DNA of 64,000 nucleotides, from the NCBI GenBank assembly GCA_020848275.1, contig JADLAK010000058.1, positions 56,574 to 120,573 on the forward strand, given 5' to 3'. How positions within the stretch are numbered: position 1 is the first letter of the stretch; each line of letters begins with the position of its first letter. This stretch comes from Planctomycetota bacterium. Lineage in GTDB: Bacteria > Planctomycetota > UBA8742 > UBA2392. Under the pieces are notes generated by a model. The model did no database searches. It was not told the origin of the DNA and saw only the letters and a list, made by a program, of their open reading frames with translations. The position numbers and the translations under genes are program-made. Below are positions 11,829 through 20,013 of the stretch, one piece after another.

Positions 11829-12986
11829 ATGACCGATACCATCGCGCCGCACGGCGGCAAACTCGTGAACTGCGTGTCTCAAGCGGATGAGAATCCGGAG
11901 TTTCTCAAATATCTCGGCACGCTGGTGCGTGTGCCGCTCAATGAGCGCGAGCACAGCGACTTCGAACTCATCGCCATCGGCGCGCTTTCGCCGCTGGACG
12001 GTTTTATGACCGAGGGCGAGCACAAGAGTGTGGTCAACGACATGCGGCTGCCCAACGGGCTGGTCTGGTCGATCCCGGTGAATCTGGCGACTGACACGGC
12101 CACGGGCGACAAGATTAAACTCAACCATGATGTCGCGCTGACCGACGCAACGGGCGCGATCGTGGGCCTGATGCGCGTGACGAGCAAGTACGCCTCGAAC
12201 TGGGAAGAAGAATCGCAGAAGGTCAATCTCACGACCGACGAAAAGCACCCCGGCACGGCCTACATCAAGAACCGCAAGCCCGTCTTGATTGGCGGGCCGA
12301 TCCAGTTGCTGCACATGCGCAAGCCGGAGTTTCCCAGCCGCACGCGCTCGCCCGAGGAAACCCGCGCGCTGTTCCGCGAACTCGGCTGGAAGACGGTCGT
12401 TGCGTTCCAGACGCGCAACCCGATCCACCGCGCCCACGAATTCCTGACCAAGTGCGCGCTGGAACTGGTCGACGGCCTGCTGATTCACCCGTTGGTCGGC
12501 GAGACGAAGTCGGACGACATCCCGGCGCCCGTGCGCATGCGCTGCTATGAGGCGCTGGTAGAAAAATACTACCCGAAGGACCGCGTGGCGCTGACGGTGC
12601 TGCCCGCCGCGATGCGCTATGCGGGTCCGCGCGAGGCCATCCACCACGCGCTCATGCGCAAGAATTACGGCTGCACGCATTTCATCGTCGGCCGCGATCA
12701 CGCGGGCGTGGGTAACTACTACGGCACCTACGACGCGCAGAAGATGTTCGACCGCTTCAAGCCGGAAGAAATCGGGATCACGCCGATGAAGTTCGAGCAC
12801 ACCTTCTGGCACACCGGTTTGAAGGAAATGGTCAGCAACAAGACCAGCCCGGGACCCAAGGAAGCCCACCTGGCGCTGTCAGGCACAAAGGTGCGCGAGA
12901 TGCTGGCAAGCGGCCAGGACCTGCCGCCGGAATTCACCCGCCCCGAAGTCAGCAAAATCCTGATGGAGTTTTACAGAGGCAAGTAG
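11829..12986 (+). CDS. sat: Sulfate adenylyltransferase (ATP sulfurylase)
   Basis: AFQTRNPIHRAHEFLTK, GRDHAGVGNYYG motifs. Confidence 0.97.
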   Translation: MTDTIAPHGGKLVNCVSQADENPEFLKYLGTLVRVPLNEREHSDFELIAIGALSPLDGFMTEGEHKSVVNDMRLPNGLVWSIPVNLATDTATGDKIKLNHDVALTDATGAIVGLMRVTSKYASNWEEESQKVNLTTDEKHPGTAYIKNRKPVLIGGPIQLLHMRKPEFPSRTRSPEETRALFRELGWKTVVAFQTRNPIHRAHEFLTKCALELVDGLLIHPLVGETKSDDIPAPVRMRCYEALVEKYYPKDRVALTVLPAAMRYAGPREAIHHALMRKNYGCTHFIVGRDHAGVGNYYGTYDAQKMFDRFKPEEIGITPMKFEHTFWHTGLKEMVSNKTSPGPKEAHLALSGTKVREMLASGQDLPPEFTRPEVSKILMEFYRGK

Positions 12987-12989
12987 GGG

Positions 12990-13041
12990 CAGGGGACTGT
13001 CCCAGGGCCGAGCCTTTGCGGCCCGTGCGGACTGTCCCCGC
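12990..13041. repeat. Word-hairpin element, family D (GGGGACTGTCCC...GTGCGGACTGTCCCCG)
   Basis: GGGGACTGTCCCAGGGCCGAGCCTTTGCGGCCCGTGCGGACTGTCCCCG; recurs at 14501 and 18583. Confidence 0.85.
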
Positions 13042-13571: not shown

Positions 13572-13578
13572 TCTGAGC

Positions 13579-13646
13579 ACCTGCCGCCGGAATTCACCCA
13601 TCCCGAGGTCAGCAAAATCCTGATGGAGTATTATCGCGGGAAGTAG
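13579..13646 (+). pseudogene. Second copy of the 3' end of sat (LPPEFTHPEVSKILMEYYRGK*)
   Basis: About 60/68 nt identical to 12919-12986, in frame to the TAG, offset exactly 660 bp. Confidence 0.93.
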
Positions 13647-13649
13647 CGG

Positions 13650-13762
13650 CATCGACCTCCAGGTCGATGGGTGTTCGCTTTCAGCGTGGGGCAGGCTTCC
13701 AGCCTGCCCTTCGTTTCTGTGGCCTTCGCCCTTTGGGGCTGCGGCTGAAGCCGCACCTATGT
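13650..13762. repeat. Cluster of short palindromes (CATCGACCTCCAGGTCGATG; GGGCAGGCTTCCAGCCTGCCC; GCGGCTGAAGCCGC)
   Basis: Consecutive perfect or near-perfect hairpins in a non-coding spacer. Confidence 0.8.
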
Positions 13763-13801: not shown

Positions 13802-13833
13802 AAAGCCGGTTTTAGCCTTTAGCTTTTGGCTTC
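13802..13833. repeat. Word repeat, family G (TTTTAGCCTTTAGCTTTTGGC)
   Basis: Shared with 19409-19492 and 19944-19975. Confidence 0.75.
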
Positions 13834-13913
13834 CGACGTTGTACACTTAACCCAAGCCCCGGTGCACGTTGCGGCTGCCAACCCCTTCCATTGGCCGCAT
13901 GTGGAGCTTTGAA

Positions 13914-14470: not shown

Positions 14471-16522
14471 GTGTTGCCTATAGCATCGAGCAAGATCAGC
14501 GGGACAGTCCGCATGTGCGGACTGTCCCTCATTCTGTTGGTGCTGCTGGCCGCACCGCTGCGCGCCGACAGCCCGGCCTCGGAAGCCACAACCGACCGCA
14601 CGCTGGCTGAGGCCCGCGTGGCGCTTAGCCGCGGCCTGACGGGTGCGGCGCTCGAGCGTTCGACCGCCGCGCTCAAACGCGCGCCGCTAGGCGCGCCTGA
14701 GAACTTACAGATGGCGCTGACGCTGTGGTGGGTCGGCCAATTCGACGACGCCGCGCGTTACCTGCGCCGCGCGCTCGCCGACAACCCGGAAATCCTGGGC
14801 AACGAGCCGAAACTGCGTGAGCGTGTGCCAAGCGCGCAGGTCAATGACAAGATTCTCGCCGTGGCAAAACTCGCCGACCAAAGCGCCGAGCTTTGTTTCC
14901 TCACGGGCACGTTACTGCTGATCGACCGCGACCAGGGCCGCGCCATGCCGTTTCTGGTGCGGTCTGAGGAACTCGCGGGCACCGACGGCCAGGCCAGCAC
15001 GCTGATTGGAGCCATCGACGCCTCGCCGCGCCCCGACCGCAACCTGACGCGTGGCCTGCGCGAAATGCAGGAGGGCGACCTCGACCGCGCGCAACGTTCG
15101 TTCGCGTTCGCGGCGCTCGACCGTCCGCAACTCTGCGAGGCTTACGCGGGCTGGACGCTGGCGCTGGTCGCCGCCGCACAAGACGCCGAGGCCCTGCGCA
15201 TGGCCGACACGATGCAGGCGCGCTGCCCGCCGCAGAAACTGCTCAACTGGCTTGCGGGCGGCAAACTCGCGGCCTTGAGTGACGCCGGAACGCGCCTCGA
15301 AAAGGCCGCCGATGCTGTTGCCGCGCCCGTGCCGCACTTGCGGCTGGCGATGATCTGCTTTTTCGCCGCGGGTTATTACGGCAGCGCCCAGCGTTGCGGC
15401 GTCTCGCTGCTTGTCCAGGACAAGCTCGACGACTACACGCTGCAAGCTCTCGATTACATGTCGGCGCGCAAACTCAACGACGACCCGTTCAAGGCAGCGC
15501 CGGATCGGCCCCTGCCGACCAACCCCGACAAGCCGCCAGTCGTGCCGCCGACGCAGACGCCGACCGAGGCCGCCCGTGCGGCGATGAAGAAAGCCGATTA
15601 CGCCACGGCGATGCAGTTGCTGGAACCACAAGTCGACGGCGCCAACACGCCCGTAGTGGTGCTGCACCTGTTGTTCGTGTGTCTCGTCGGCCGTGGCGAA
15701 CTGATCGACGCCGGCAGCGCCTTCCAGGCGTGGTGGAGTCGCGCGAGCGACGATGAGCGCACCCGCACCAACGCCGTGCGCGAAATTTTCGCCAAGGGCG
15801 CCGATTACGACGCATGGCTGAAGCAGCTCACGAATGCGCGCGACGCCGACCTTTCCGCGGCGCTGCCGCGCATGCTGATCGCCTACACGGAAATCTGCGA
15901 CGGCAAGTATGAATCCGCGCGTGTGAGCCTTTCGGTCGCGCTGCGCGCCGAAAACAAAAACTTCACGCTGCAGTCGATGGACCGGCTGATGGCGCAGCCG
16001 AAATTCGCCGCCGACACCGGCCGGCCGAAGGTTGAGGACACGCCCGACCCGATCCAGCTCATGGCGCGCGGCGAGCAGCAATTCAAGGACCGCAAATATC
16101 CCGAGGCGCTGGCGTCGTTCCTGGCCGCCGCCGAACGCGACCGCAAGCTCAAGGGGATCGGCGCGGCGCTGCTCAAGGCGATGTTCGCCGCGGGCCAATA
16201 CGACGACGCCGCCAACCACCTGTTGCGGCTGTTTGACGACCTCGATGTCGCCAACAAGGGCGCCGATGCGTTCACGGTTTCGGTTTTCGCGGGCTATCTC
16301 GACAGCGCCGAGTTCGACAAGCACCTTGCGGCGCTGCGGCAGACCTGCGACGCGCGCAAACTCGCCAGCGCGCCGTGGCTGGTGCTGGGCGCGGTGCTGT
16401 ACGGCAAGCACGACTACAATGGCGCGCGCGACGCGTTGCAGGTCTACCGCGAAAACGAGCGCGGCAAGCCGAACAAGGCCGCTGTGATGCTGCTCGAATC
16501 CGCAAAAAAACAAGCCCGGTAG
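14471..16522 (+). CDS. TPR-like secreted protein (start uncertain: GTG 14471 or ATG 14513)
   Basis: Signal peptide MCGLSLILLVLLAAPLRA; repeated helical pairs. Confidence 0.7.
   Translation: MLPIASSKISGTVRMCGLSLILLVLLAAPLRADSPASEATTDRTLAEARVALSRGLTGAALERSTAALKRAPLGAPENLQMALTLWWVGQFDDAARYLRRALADNPEILGNEPKLRERVPSAQVNDKILAVAKLADQSAELCFLTGTLLLIDRDQGRAMPFLVRSEELAGTDGQASTLIGAIDASPRPDRNLTRGLREMQEGDLDRAQRSFAFAALDRPQLCEAYAGWTLALVAAAQDAEALRMADTMQARCPPQKLLNWLAGGKLAALSDAGTRLEKAADAVAAPVPHLRLAMICFFAAGYYGSAQRCGVSLLVQDKLDDYTLQALDYMSARKLNDDPFKAAPDRPLPTNPDKPPVVPPTQTPTEAARAAMKKADYATAMQLLEPQVDGANTPVVVLHLLFVCLVGRGELIDAGSAFQAWWSRASDDERTRTNAVREIFAKGADYDAWLKQLTNARDADLSAALPRMLIAYTEICDGKYESARVSLSVALRAENKNFTLQSMDRLMAQPKFAADTGRPKVEDTPDPIQLMARGEQQFKDRKYPEALASFLAAAERDRKLKGIGAALLKAMFAAGQYDDAANHLLRLFDDLDVANKGADAFTVSVFAGYLDSAEFDKHLAALRQTCDARKLASAPWLVLGAVLYGKHDYNGARDALQVYRENERGKPNKAAVMLLESAKKQAR
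14501..14528. repeat. Perfect 13-bp palindrome of family D overlapping a candidate start codon
   Basis: GGGACAGTCCGCA-TG-TGCGGACTGTCCC. Confidence 0.95.
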
Positions 16523-16585
16523 GGACACGCGGCAGCGTGTCCGCAAAACCATCGTAATCACCGGACACGCTGCCGCGTGTCCTTA
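16520..16585. repeat. Word-hairpin element, family F (TAGGGACACGCGGCAGCGTGTCCG ... inverted)
   Basis: Perfect 21-nt inverted repeat 16523-16543 / 16562-16582. Confidence 0.97.
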
Positions 16586-16613
16586 CGCGACGCCTCATGG
16601 TAAACACTTGGCC

Positions 16614-17949: not shown

Positions 17950-18582
17950 ATGCCGGAACTGACGCCAAAACCGCTTACCTGCCCGTGCTGCAAGCGCGCG
18001 TTTGAATCGCAGCTCGTGGTCGGCTTCAGCATCGGCGAAAAAGAATCCGACTTCTGCCCGCGTTATCTCGACGGCAACCCGTTGCCGAACTTCATGCACG
18101 TCTGCCCCGGTTGCGGTTTTGTCGGCTACGAGGCCGATTACCGCAACCTCACCGACGAGCGCAAAATTGAAAAGATCAAACGACTGCTCGTCGGCCTGCT
18201 GTGGGAAGAAGGCAAGAAACTCGGCGGCGCGGAACGTTATCGCCGTGCGGCGCTGATCGCGCTCTACCTCGGCAAACGCAGCGCCGAAGTCGCGGACCTG
18301 TACCTGCAGGCGACGTGGTGCTCGCGCATGGAAGGCGAATCGGACGAGGAAGAAAAACAGGCGCGTCGCAAAGCGGTGAAGTACTTTGAACTCGGCCTGG
18401 CCGCCGACGAATTCGCGCCCGAGGACCAGCCTGTGGTGCATTATCTCGTCGGCGAACTCTCGCGTCGCCTGGGCGAAATCAAAAAAGCGCGCAAGCACTT
18501 TGCGATGATCGACGAATTGCCCCACGTCGAGCCCTGGCTCAAGGAATGGCGCGACAAACAAAAGAAGATGCTGGAAAGTTAG
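17950..18582 (+). CDS. DUF2225-like protein
   Basis: Cys pairs CPCCKRAF...FCPRYLDGNPLP...VCPGCGFVGYEADY. Confidence 0.75.
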   Translation: MPELTPKPLTCPCCKRAFESQLVVGFSIGEKESDFCPRYLDGNPLPNFMHVCPGCGFVGYEADYRNLTDERKIEKIKRLLVGLLWEEGKKLGGAERYRRAALIALYLGKRSAEVADLYLQATWCSRMEGESDEEEKQARRKAVKYFELGLAADEFAPEDQPVVHYLVGELSRRLGEIKKARKHFAMIDELPHVEPWLKEWRDKQKKMLES

Positions 18583-18710
18583 GGGGCTGTCCCAGCGAGT
18601 CCTGAGCTTGCGAAGGACGAGCGTGCGGACTGTCCCCGACCTGGCCGGTAACCGGGGACAGTCCACACACGCCGATGGCGGCAAGCCGCCATCGGCGCTG
18701 GGACAGTCCT
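18583..18710. repeat. Large composite inverted repeat: two mirrored family D units with different internal palindromes
   Basis: GGGGGCTGTCCCAGCG...CGCTGGGACAGTCC outer arms; GTGCGGACTGTCCCCG...CCGGGGACAGTCCACAC inner arms; GCCGATGGCGGCAAGCCGCCATCGGC perfect stem. Confidence 0.9.
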
Positions 18711-18711
18711 T

Positions 18712-19401
18712 TTAATTCACCGGCGGTTCCGCGTCAGGGTCAATCGGTTGCGGCAGTTGCGGGATCATGCGGTTTTCGAGTTCGCTGATCGCGTGCGCCG
18801 CGCGACCCAGCACGTTCACGTTCGACAACTGCGCCAGCTTGAAACCAATCTCGAACGGCAGGTATGCGCTGACAAGGTCCACCAGCACTGCCAGGTCGCG
18901 CTGGCCGCCCAGCAGCGTGCGGAACTGGTCAGAGTTGTCGCGCACCGCCGCAAGCGCCAGCGCCTTGAGCTCGACCGCCAGCCCGCCCTGCATGCCGCCG
19001 CCGCCGTCGGGCGCAATATCGAACATCCATTCGGCCTCAAAGCGGCGATACTGGCGGTCGCCTTCAACCTCGCGTTTGAGTTCGACGCGACCGATGCCCT
19101 TGAGCACGATCATGTAGCGCCCGTCGGGCAGCTTGCTGTATTCGACCAGCCGGCCCACGCCCGCAACCTTGTGCACCGGCGGCGTTCCGAGCGTGTCCTT
19201 GCTTTCCTTCTGCATCAGCGTGCCCATGGCAAAGCAACGCTCGGCCTCGGGCAGCTTGAGGGTGTCTTCGATCAACTGGCGGTAGCGCGGCTCGAAAATG
19301 TGCAACGGCATGATCGCGTGCGGGAACAACGTAAAATCCGGCAGCGGAAAGACCGCCAGCGGCTTGGCCGCAAGGTCCGGCAACTCGAAGACTTCACGCA
19401 T
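18712..19401 (-). CDS. LON substrate-binding domain protein
   Basis: LAVFPLPDFTLFPHAIMPLHIFEPRYRQLIEDTL. Confidence 0.9.
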   Translation of the reverse strand: MREVFELPDLAAKPLAVFPLPDFTLFPHAIMPLHIFEPRYRQLIEDTLKLPEAERCFAMGTLMQKESKDTLGTPPVHKVAGVGRLVEYSKLPDGRYMIVLKGIGRVELKREVEGDRQYRRFEAEWMFDIAPDGGGGMQGGLAVELKALALAAVRDNSDQFRTLLGGQRDLAVLVDLVSAYLPFEIGFKLAQLSNVNVLGRAAHAISELENRMIPQLPQPIDPDAEPPVN

Positions 19402-19408
19402 TTGAAAC

Positions 19409-19492
19409 TCAGGCTAAAAGCTAAAGGCTAAAATTTGCTCAATCAGCCCGGTTAGCTACACCTCAAATTTTAGCTTTTAGCCTTCAGCTTCA
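19409..19492. repeat. Word-hairpin element, family G (GGCTAAAAGCTAAAGGCTAAAATTTG ... inverted)
   Basis: Inverted AGCTAAAAG words with perfect GCTAAAATTTG/CAAATTTTAGC ends. Confidence 0.9.
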
Positions 19493-19509
19493 CCAATGGA
19501 CTACGGGTG

Positions 19510-19943: not shown

Positions 19944-19975
19944 CAAAATTTAGCCTTTAGCTTTTAGCCTTTGGC
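19944..19975. repeat. Word repeat, family G (AAAATTTAGCCTTTAGCTTTTAGCCTTTGGCG)
   Basis: Same words as 13802 and 19409. Confidence 0.8.
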
Positions 19976-20013
19976 GTAATTCGCGCTATTGTCGGCCCGT
20001 TCGCTCCGAGGAA

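Follow-up and report, generated by a model that had tools for sequence, protein, structure and literature searches.

A probable REPIN-like inverted repeat pair with a constant frame and changing hairpin cores in a Planctomycetota genome

The element at positions 18583-18710 of the window (the whole 64,000-nucleotide stretch of Planctomycetota DNA analysed here) consists of two hairpins in inverted orientation, built on one common frame around two unrelated cores. We put the probability at roughly 0.8 that this is a REPIN-like, non-autonomous element of the TIRYT/RAYT class which is spread on single-stranded DNA by a Y1 (HUH) transposase of the RAYT/TIRYT type. The element is of a known kind, in an unusual variant.

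The 128 bp of the element occupy the gap between the stop codons of two convergent genes: a DUF2225 gene (17950-18582, + strand), whose stop codon abuts the element, and a LON substrate-binding domain gene (18712-19401, - strand), whose stop codon lies one base away. Read at these positions, both arms have the frame GGACTGTCCCAGCG...CGTGYGGACTGTCCCCG. The left arm (18583-18638, + strand) reads GGGGCTGTCCCAGCGA-GTCCTGAGCTTGCGAAGGAC-GAGCGTGCGGACTGTCCCCG, with an S-type core, GTCCTGAGCTTGCGAAGGAC, at 18599-18618. A spacer (18639-18652) separates it from the right arm (18653-18710, - strand), which on that strand reads AGGACTGTCCCAGCG-CCGATGGCGGC-TT-GCCGCCATCGG-CGTGTGTGGACTGTCCCCG and carries a perfect hairpin as its core (18672-18695). 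An earlier note on this DNA had described a common frame with differing internal palindromes, and its letters and coordinates were correct when we re-read the sequence. Compared with dinucleotide shuffles, folding is stronger for both arms (z = -2.0 for the left and -8.6 for the right) and for the whole element (130 nt, z = -8.1). The fold predicted for each arm pairs its two GGACTGTCCC words with a T-T mismatch in mid-stem, and conserved unpaired bases are found at the inner foot of the frame. A REPIN is made up of two closely spaced REPs in inverted orientation, which is the arrangement at 18583-18710. The canonical REP trait of GT[AG]G at the 5' foot is missing, and only the copy on contig C8 has GTAG among the listed elements.

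The frame word is a repeat in the window and throughout the genome. With at most one mismatch, GGACTGTCCC has 9 matches in the window against 0.66 expected, a count reached by none of 100 shuffles, and the window's genome holds 58 exact copies versus 0 for a reversed-pattern control. Further inverted groups in this genome were found at C73:14461-14546 and C42:18190-18289. The distribution inside the Planctomycetota family is patchy: four relatives have 213 (G007), 139 (G014), 143 (G015) and 50 (G012) exact copies, and the remaining family members have 2-9, five of these being congeneric with a high-copy genome. G012 matches records of Planctomycetota bacterium SJ383 without a difference over 1000 bases, placing the family in this phylum. 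Of the 61 genomes searched, only the window's own contains the exact long frame; the 60 relatives have none. Similar long frames (GGGGACTGTCCCAAGC...GCGTGGACTGTCCCC) were identified in Omnitrophota, Hydrogenedentota, Auribacterota, Sphingomonadales and others. We also observed the paired GGACTGTCCC hairpin or related pairs in four IMG/VR viral contigs (L336-L339). A literature search for the frame and S words as letter strings returned no relevant match.

Comparison of the orthologous site in the genomes where both flanking genes were found shows that the element is an addition, since DUF2225 and LON nearly abut in five relatives and are 136 bp apart here. Measured between the ends of the gene matches, the distance is 9 bp in both G001 and G010, 13 bp in G002, 26 bp in G009 and 31 bp in G005. 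In G007 it is 180 bp, and an inverted pair of the short form occupies this position. The filled sites of the window's genome and G007 are compatible with one old insertion as well as with two separate ones.

The link to a transposase comes from the relatives. Y1_Tnp genes are common in this Planctomycetota family, and in G007, G014, G015 and G012 one Y1_Tnp gene each, among those examined, is bracketed by inverted short-form GGACTGTCCC repeats. These are 28-40 nt long (40 nt with one mismatch in G007), have their starts 39-85 bp upstream of the matched coding sequence and 12-50 bp downstream of it, and show the short form (core CGCAGTTG and similar) rather than the window's long frame. The bracketed proteins of G007 and G012, the two that were tested, pass the NCBIfam cut-off for NF047646 (REP-associated tyrosine transposase) and, judged by eye, retain the HUH motif (HFH) and the tyrosine region, while the bracketed copy of G014 has an internal stop. 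The four bracketed RAYTs form one clade (support 100/98) among 51 relatives, and most other RAYTs examined have their own, different inverted repeats of the GGGAC type, in keeping with the account of TIRYTs by Di Nocera et al. (PMC3733652). A search of three bracketed proteins for a C-terminal HTH or Bac_DnaA_C domain at E-values up to 1 found none with confidence, and we do not claim TnpA-Y1 subclass 2.1 because Y1_Tnp is the only confident domain in them.

In the window's own assembly, none of the 11 Y1_Tnp matches lies near a GGACTGTCCC repeat, and a protein search for the cognate RAYT gave a best identity of 27-28% to the bracketed RAYTs. Given that this assembly is 88% complete and that several repeat copies end contigs, the RAYT gene may be missing from it or may have been lost. 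Contig ends beside the repeats, read for a hidden mobile gene, held ordinary genes and strain-variant joints and no transposase. Likewise, no RAYT was found next to the long frame in the genomes of other phyla that carry it, where the RAYTs have other GGGAC-type inverted repeats. Other Y1_Tnp genes of the window's genome (L026, L035) were observed near a different repeat, GGCGCGGACATTCCTGTCCGCGCC.

Among known systems, the closest comparisons are with TIRYTs and with the REPIN/RAYT system of Pseudomonas. TIRYTs are Y1 genes with TIR repeats (TIRtrons) of the consensus GGGGWSAS (Di Nocera et al. 2013, PMC3733652), and GGGGACAG, which fits this consensus, is present in the element at 18583-18710 and also at the bracketed RAYT genes of the relatives. 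As in TIRYTs, a Y1 gene is bracketed by GGGGWSAS inverted repeats (here GGGGACAG, in the relatives), and the repeats are dispersed as singles, dimers and clusters, some of them self-complementary (PMC3733652). Unlike in TIRYTs, the repeat here surrounds a hairpin core that varies among 18 long-frame copies, and the window's 88%-complete assembly yielded no bracketed gene. A further difference is from subclass 2.1, to which most TIRYTs belong (PMC6006769), as its C-terminal HTH/DnaA-like domain was undetected in the relatives' proteins. With Pseudomonas REPIN/RAYT (PMC3116915) the element shares an intergenic inverted pair of short palindromic repeats, a patchy distribution and a tie, seen here in the relatives, to one transposase clade, but the GT[AG]G foot is missing here and the cores of the two arms differ strongly.

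The difference between cores extends well beyond this pair. The earlier note had proposed a constant frame with very different cores, and we find this pattern genome-wide: across 18 distinct long-frame elements (the C75 copy included, the C110 copy counted together with that of C10), pairwise core identity has a median of 0.56 and a mean of 0.57 versus a shuffled mean of 0.50, and the cores fall into 9 groups at 70% identity. Eleven of the 18, the left core included, have one architecture in which the stems are interrupted by facing tandem G·A pairs (GA/GA). In these cores the GA pairs and the GC beside the loop are conserved, and stem letters are exchanged between copies with complementarity kept (GTCCT/AGGAC, ACCT/AGGT, GCCG/CGGC, GCCC/GGGC and GCGAACCT/AGGTTCGC). 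The remaining 7 cores, the right core among them, are plain hairpins. Each of the 11 tandem-GA cores is individually improbable against shuffles (p = 0.0005 for the left core), and the pairing of all 18 gives a combined p of 5e-9 with Watson-Crick pairs only and of 4e-21 with tandem GA counted as pairs, values that are approximate as the GA motif was picked post hoc, the copies were taken as independent and the shuffles were of single letters. REP heterodimers with alternative stems are on record, namely GTAG-24 of P. aeruginosa, CGTC-2 and CGTC-3 (PMC3733652), and these are likewise dimers of units with different stems; here, by contrast, nearly every copy has its own stem, mostly around the conserved tandem G-A pairs.

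Our preferred reading would account for this diversity as follows. Two copies of a REP/TIR hairpin would have been inserted in inverted orientation between the convergent DUF2225 and LON genes, and the GGACTGTCCC family would be spread by a RAYT/TIRYT-type Y1 (HUH) transposase that works on single-stranded DNA. The constant part, two paired GGACTGTCCC words, would be what the enzyme reads and cuts beside, and the upper stem would serve as a clamp only, its letters free to change while the hairpin forms. Cores would then diversify by compensatory change, by exchange between copies and by occasional replacement with another hairpin. Binding and cleavage by E. coli TnpA-REP persist when the loop or upper stem is swapped to its complement, while the bulge and irregular stem bases are essential (PMC8266576). 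Were this tolerance to carry over, it could explain why the frame is constant and the upper stem free, with no need for a cassette mechanism. The work on E. coli TnpA-REP with REP y/z1/z2 is a precedent for both the swapped loop or upper stem and the need for irregular stem bases (PMC8266576), although the E. coli system depends on a GTAG foot. Four observations weigh against our preferred reading: the window's 88%-complete assembly yielded no cognate RAYT, the RAYT genes of the relatives are bracketed by the short form and not by the long frame, the long frame of other phyla had no RAYT beside it, and the GT[AG]G foot of canonical REPs is missing.

The main competitor, which we regard as possible but distinctly less probable, is modular assembly: the two GGACTGTCCC words would be termini able to capture or take in independent hairpins, for example those of the S type, and the cores would be inserted cargo. 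In its favor, the left core can count as a family S word, as the earlier note had it, in the sense that CTGAGCN3-5CGAAG hairpins are over-represented genome-wide (31 versus 6 in a reversed control), with 4 in frames and 27 of the 31 elsewhere; at 11 of the 26 out-of-frame places inspected the stem has 2 or more additional pairs. Under a strict pattern, the window shows no excess of other S words over chance. The right core, CCGATGGCGGC-TT-GCCGCCATCGG, has no second copy in the genome, so its independent existence fails. For the two core types searched by pattern, then, the idea that cores also occur alone is borne out for the left-core type, at its 27 out-of-frame places, and not for the right core. 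That unrelated cores can occupy both arms of one pair also favors modular assembly, as does one locus found on contigs C10, C52 and C110 (L252, L253, L254), whose copies have common flanks and which has the core hairpin in C10 and C110 and none in C52. This locus suggests that cores come and go, although its three states sit at contig ends of an apparent metagenome assembly, where strain variation and assembly error are inseparable. Against modular assembly, the frame's inner foot merges into the core with no joint, and 11 of the 18 cores have one architecture with exchanged stems. The earlier idea of swappable cores is right in that different cores occupy one frame, but the shared architecture is the outcome to be expected from compensatory drift in a single hairpin, and for nested insertion, also proposed there, neither an insertion joint nor a duplication was seen. 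A stronger version, in which the two GGACTGTCCC ends form a single-stranded DNA hairpin cassette that acquires and exchanges unrelated hairpins and a RAYT-type enzyme works on composites with exchangeable cargo, seems to us rather unlikely; it would bear a partial likeness to an integron integrase acting on folded attC sites.

Less probable still is a role as transcription terminators or mRNA-protecting 3' hairpins, for which the copies would be retained with no tie to a transposase. Two of the three window sites do lie directly 3' of stop codons, and one of the two separates convergent genes, but a near-identical frame recurs at many sites in one genome, is missing at the orthologous site in five relatives, and shares its repeat word with the repeats that bracket transposase genes. 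We dropped the terminator-only reading on the patchy copy number and the bracketed transposase genes; a side role as terminator is possible for these hairpins. Regulator binding sites with the short, near-palindromic GGGACTGTCCC as operator word are very improbable, as most copies in the window follow genes and belong to hairpins whose frame is fixed and whose cores vary, and the word count ranges from 2 to 213 among genomes of one family.

TIRYT repeats have been described before and hardly studied. Here a single repeat family can be matched to a clear transposase clade in four Planctomycetota relatives, and both a filled and a near-empty orthologous site are available. The 18 natural variants, with their constant frame and changing stem, amount to a natural selection experiment on which hairpin letters matter, and as a set they allow the enzyme's recognition requirements to be tested directly.

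The window has two other sites of the repeat. A single arm at 12992-13040 (+ strand), just after the ATP sulfurylase gene, encloses the core GGGCCGAGCCTTTGCGGCCC (13005-13024) and folds with z = -4.6. The earlier note had listed this copy, at 12990, as the same frame with a third core; frame and third core are there, but the inner foot GCG is not kept, its place being taken by the core itself (CCCA-GGGCCGAGCCTTTGCGGCCC-GTGCGG). The fourth site, absent from that note, was found by word match at 14501-14528 near the start of a TPR gene and consists of two coreless right halves of the frame set head to head (GGGACAGTCCGCATGTGCGGACTGTCCC), forming a hairpin with 12-bp arms (fold z = -6.2). Repeats of other kinds were also observed. 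Between the TPR gene and TruD, a second inverted pair at 16519-16586 has GTAG at its foot (GTAGGGACACGCGGCAGCGTGTCCG) and resembles canonical REP pairs of the GTAG type, distinct from the GGACTGTCCC repeat family. The 3' end of the ATP sulfurylase gene (12916-12991) is repeated with 87% identity 660 bp downstream at 13576-13651, perhaps as a gene remnant. Finally, short intergenic repeats of the type TTTAGCCTTTAGCTTTTAGCC were seen at 13810-13839, 19411-19497 and 19944-19977.
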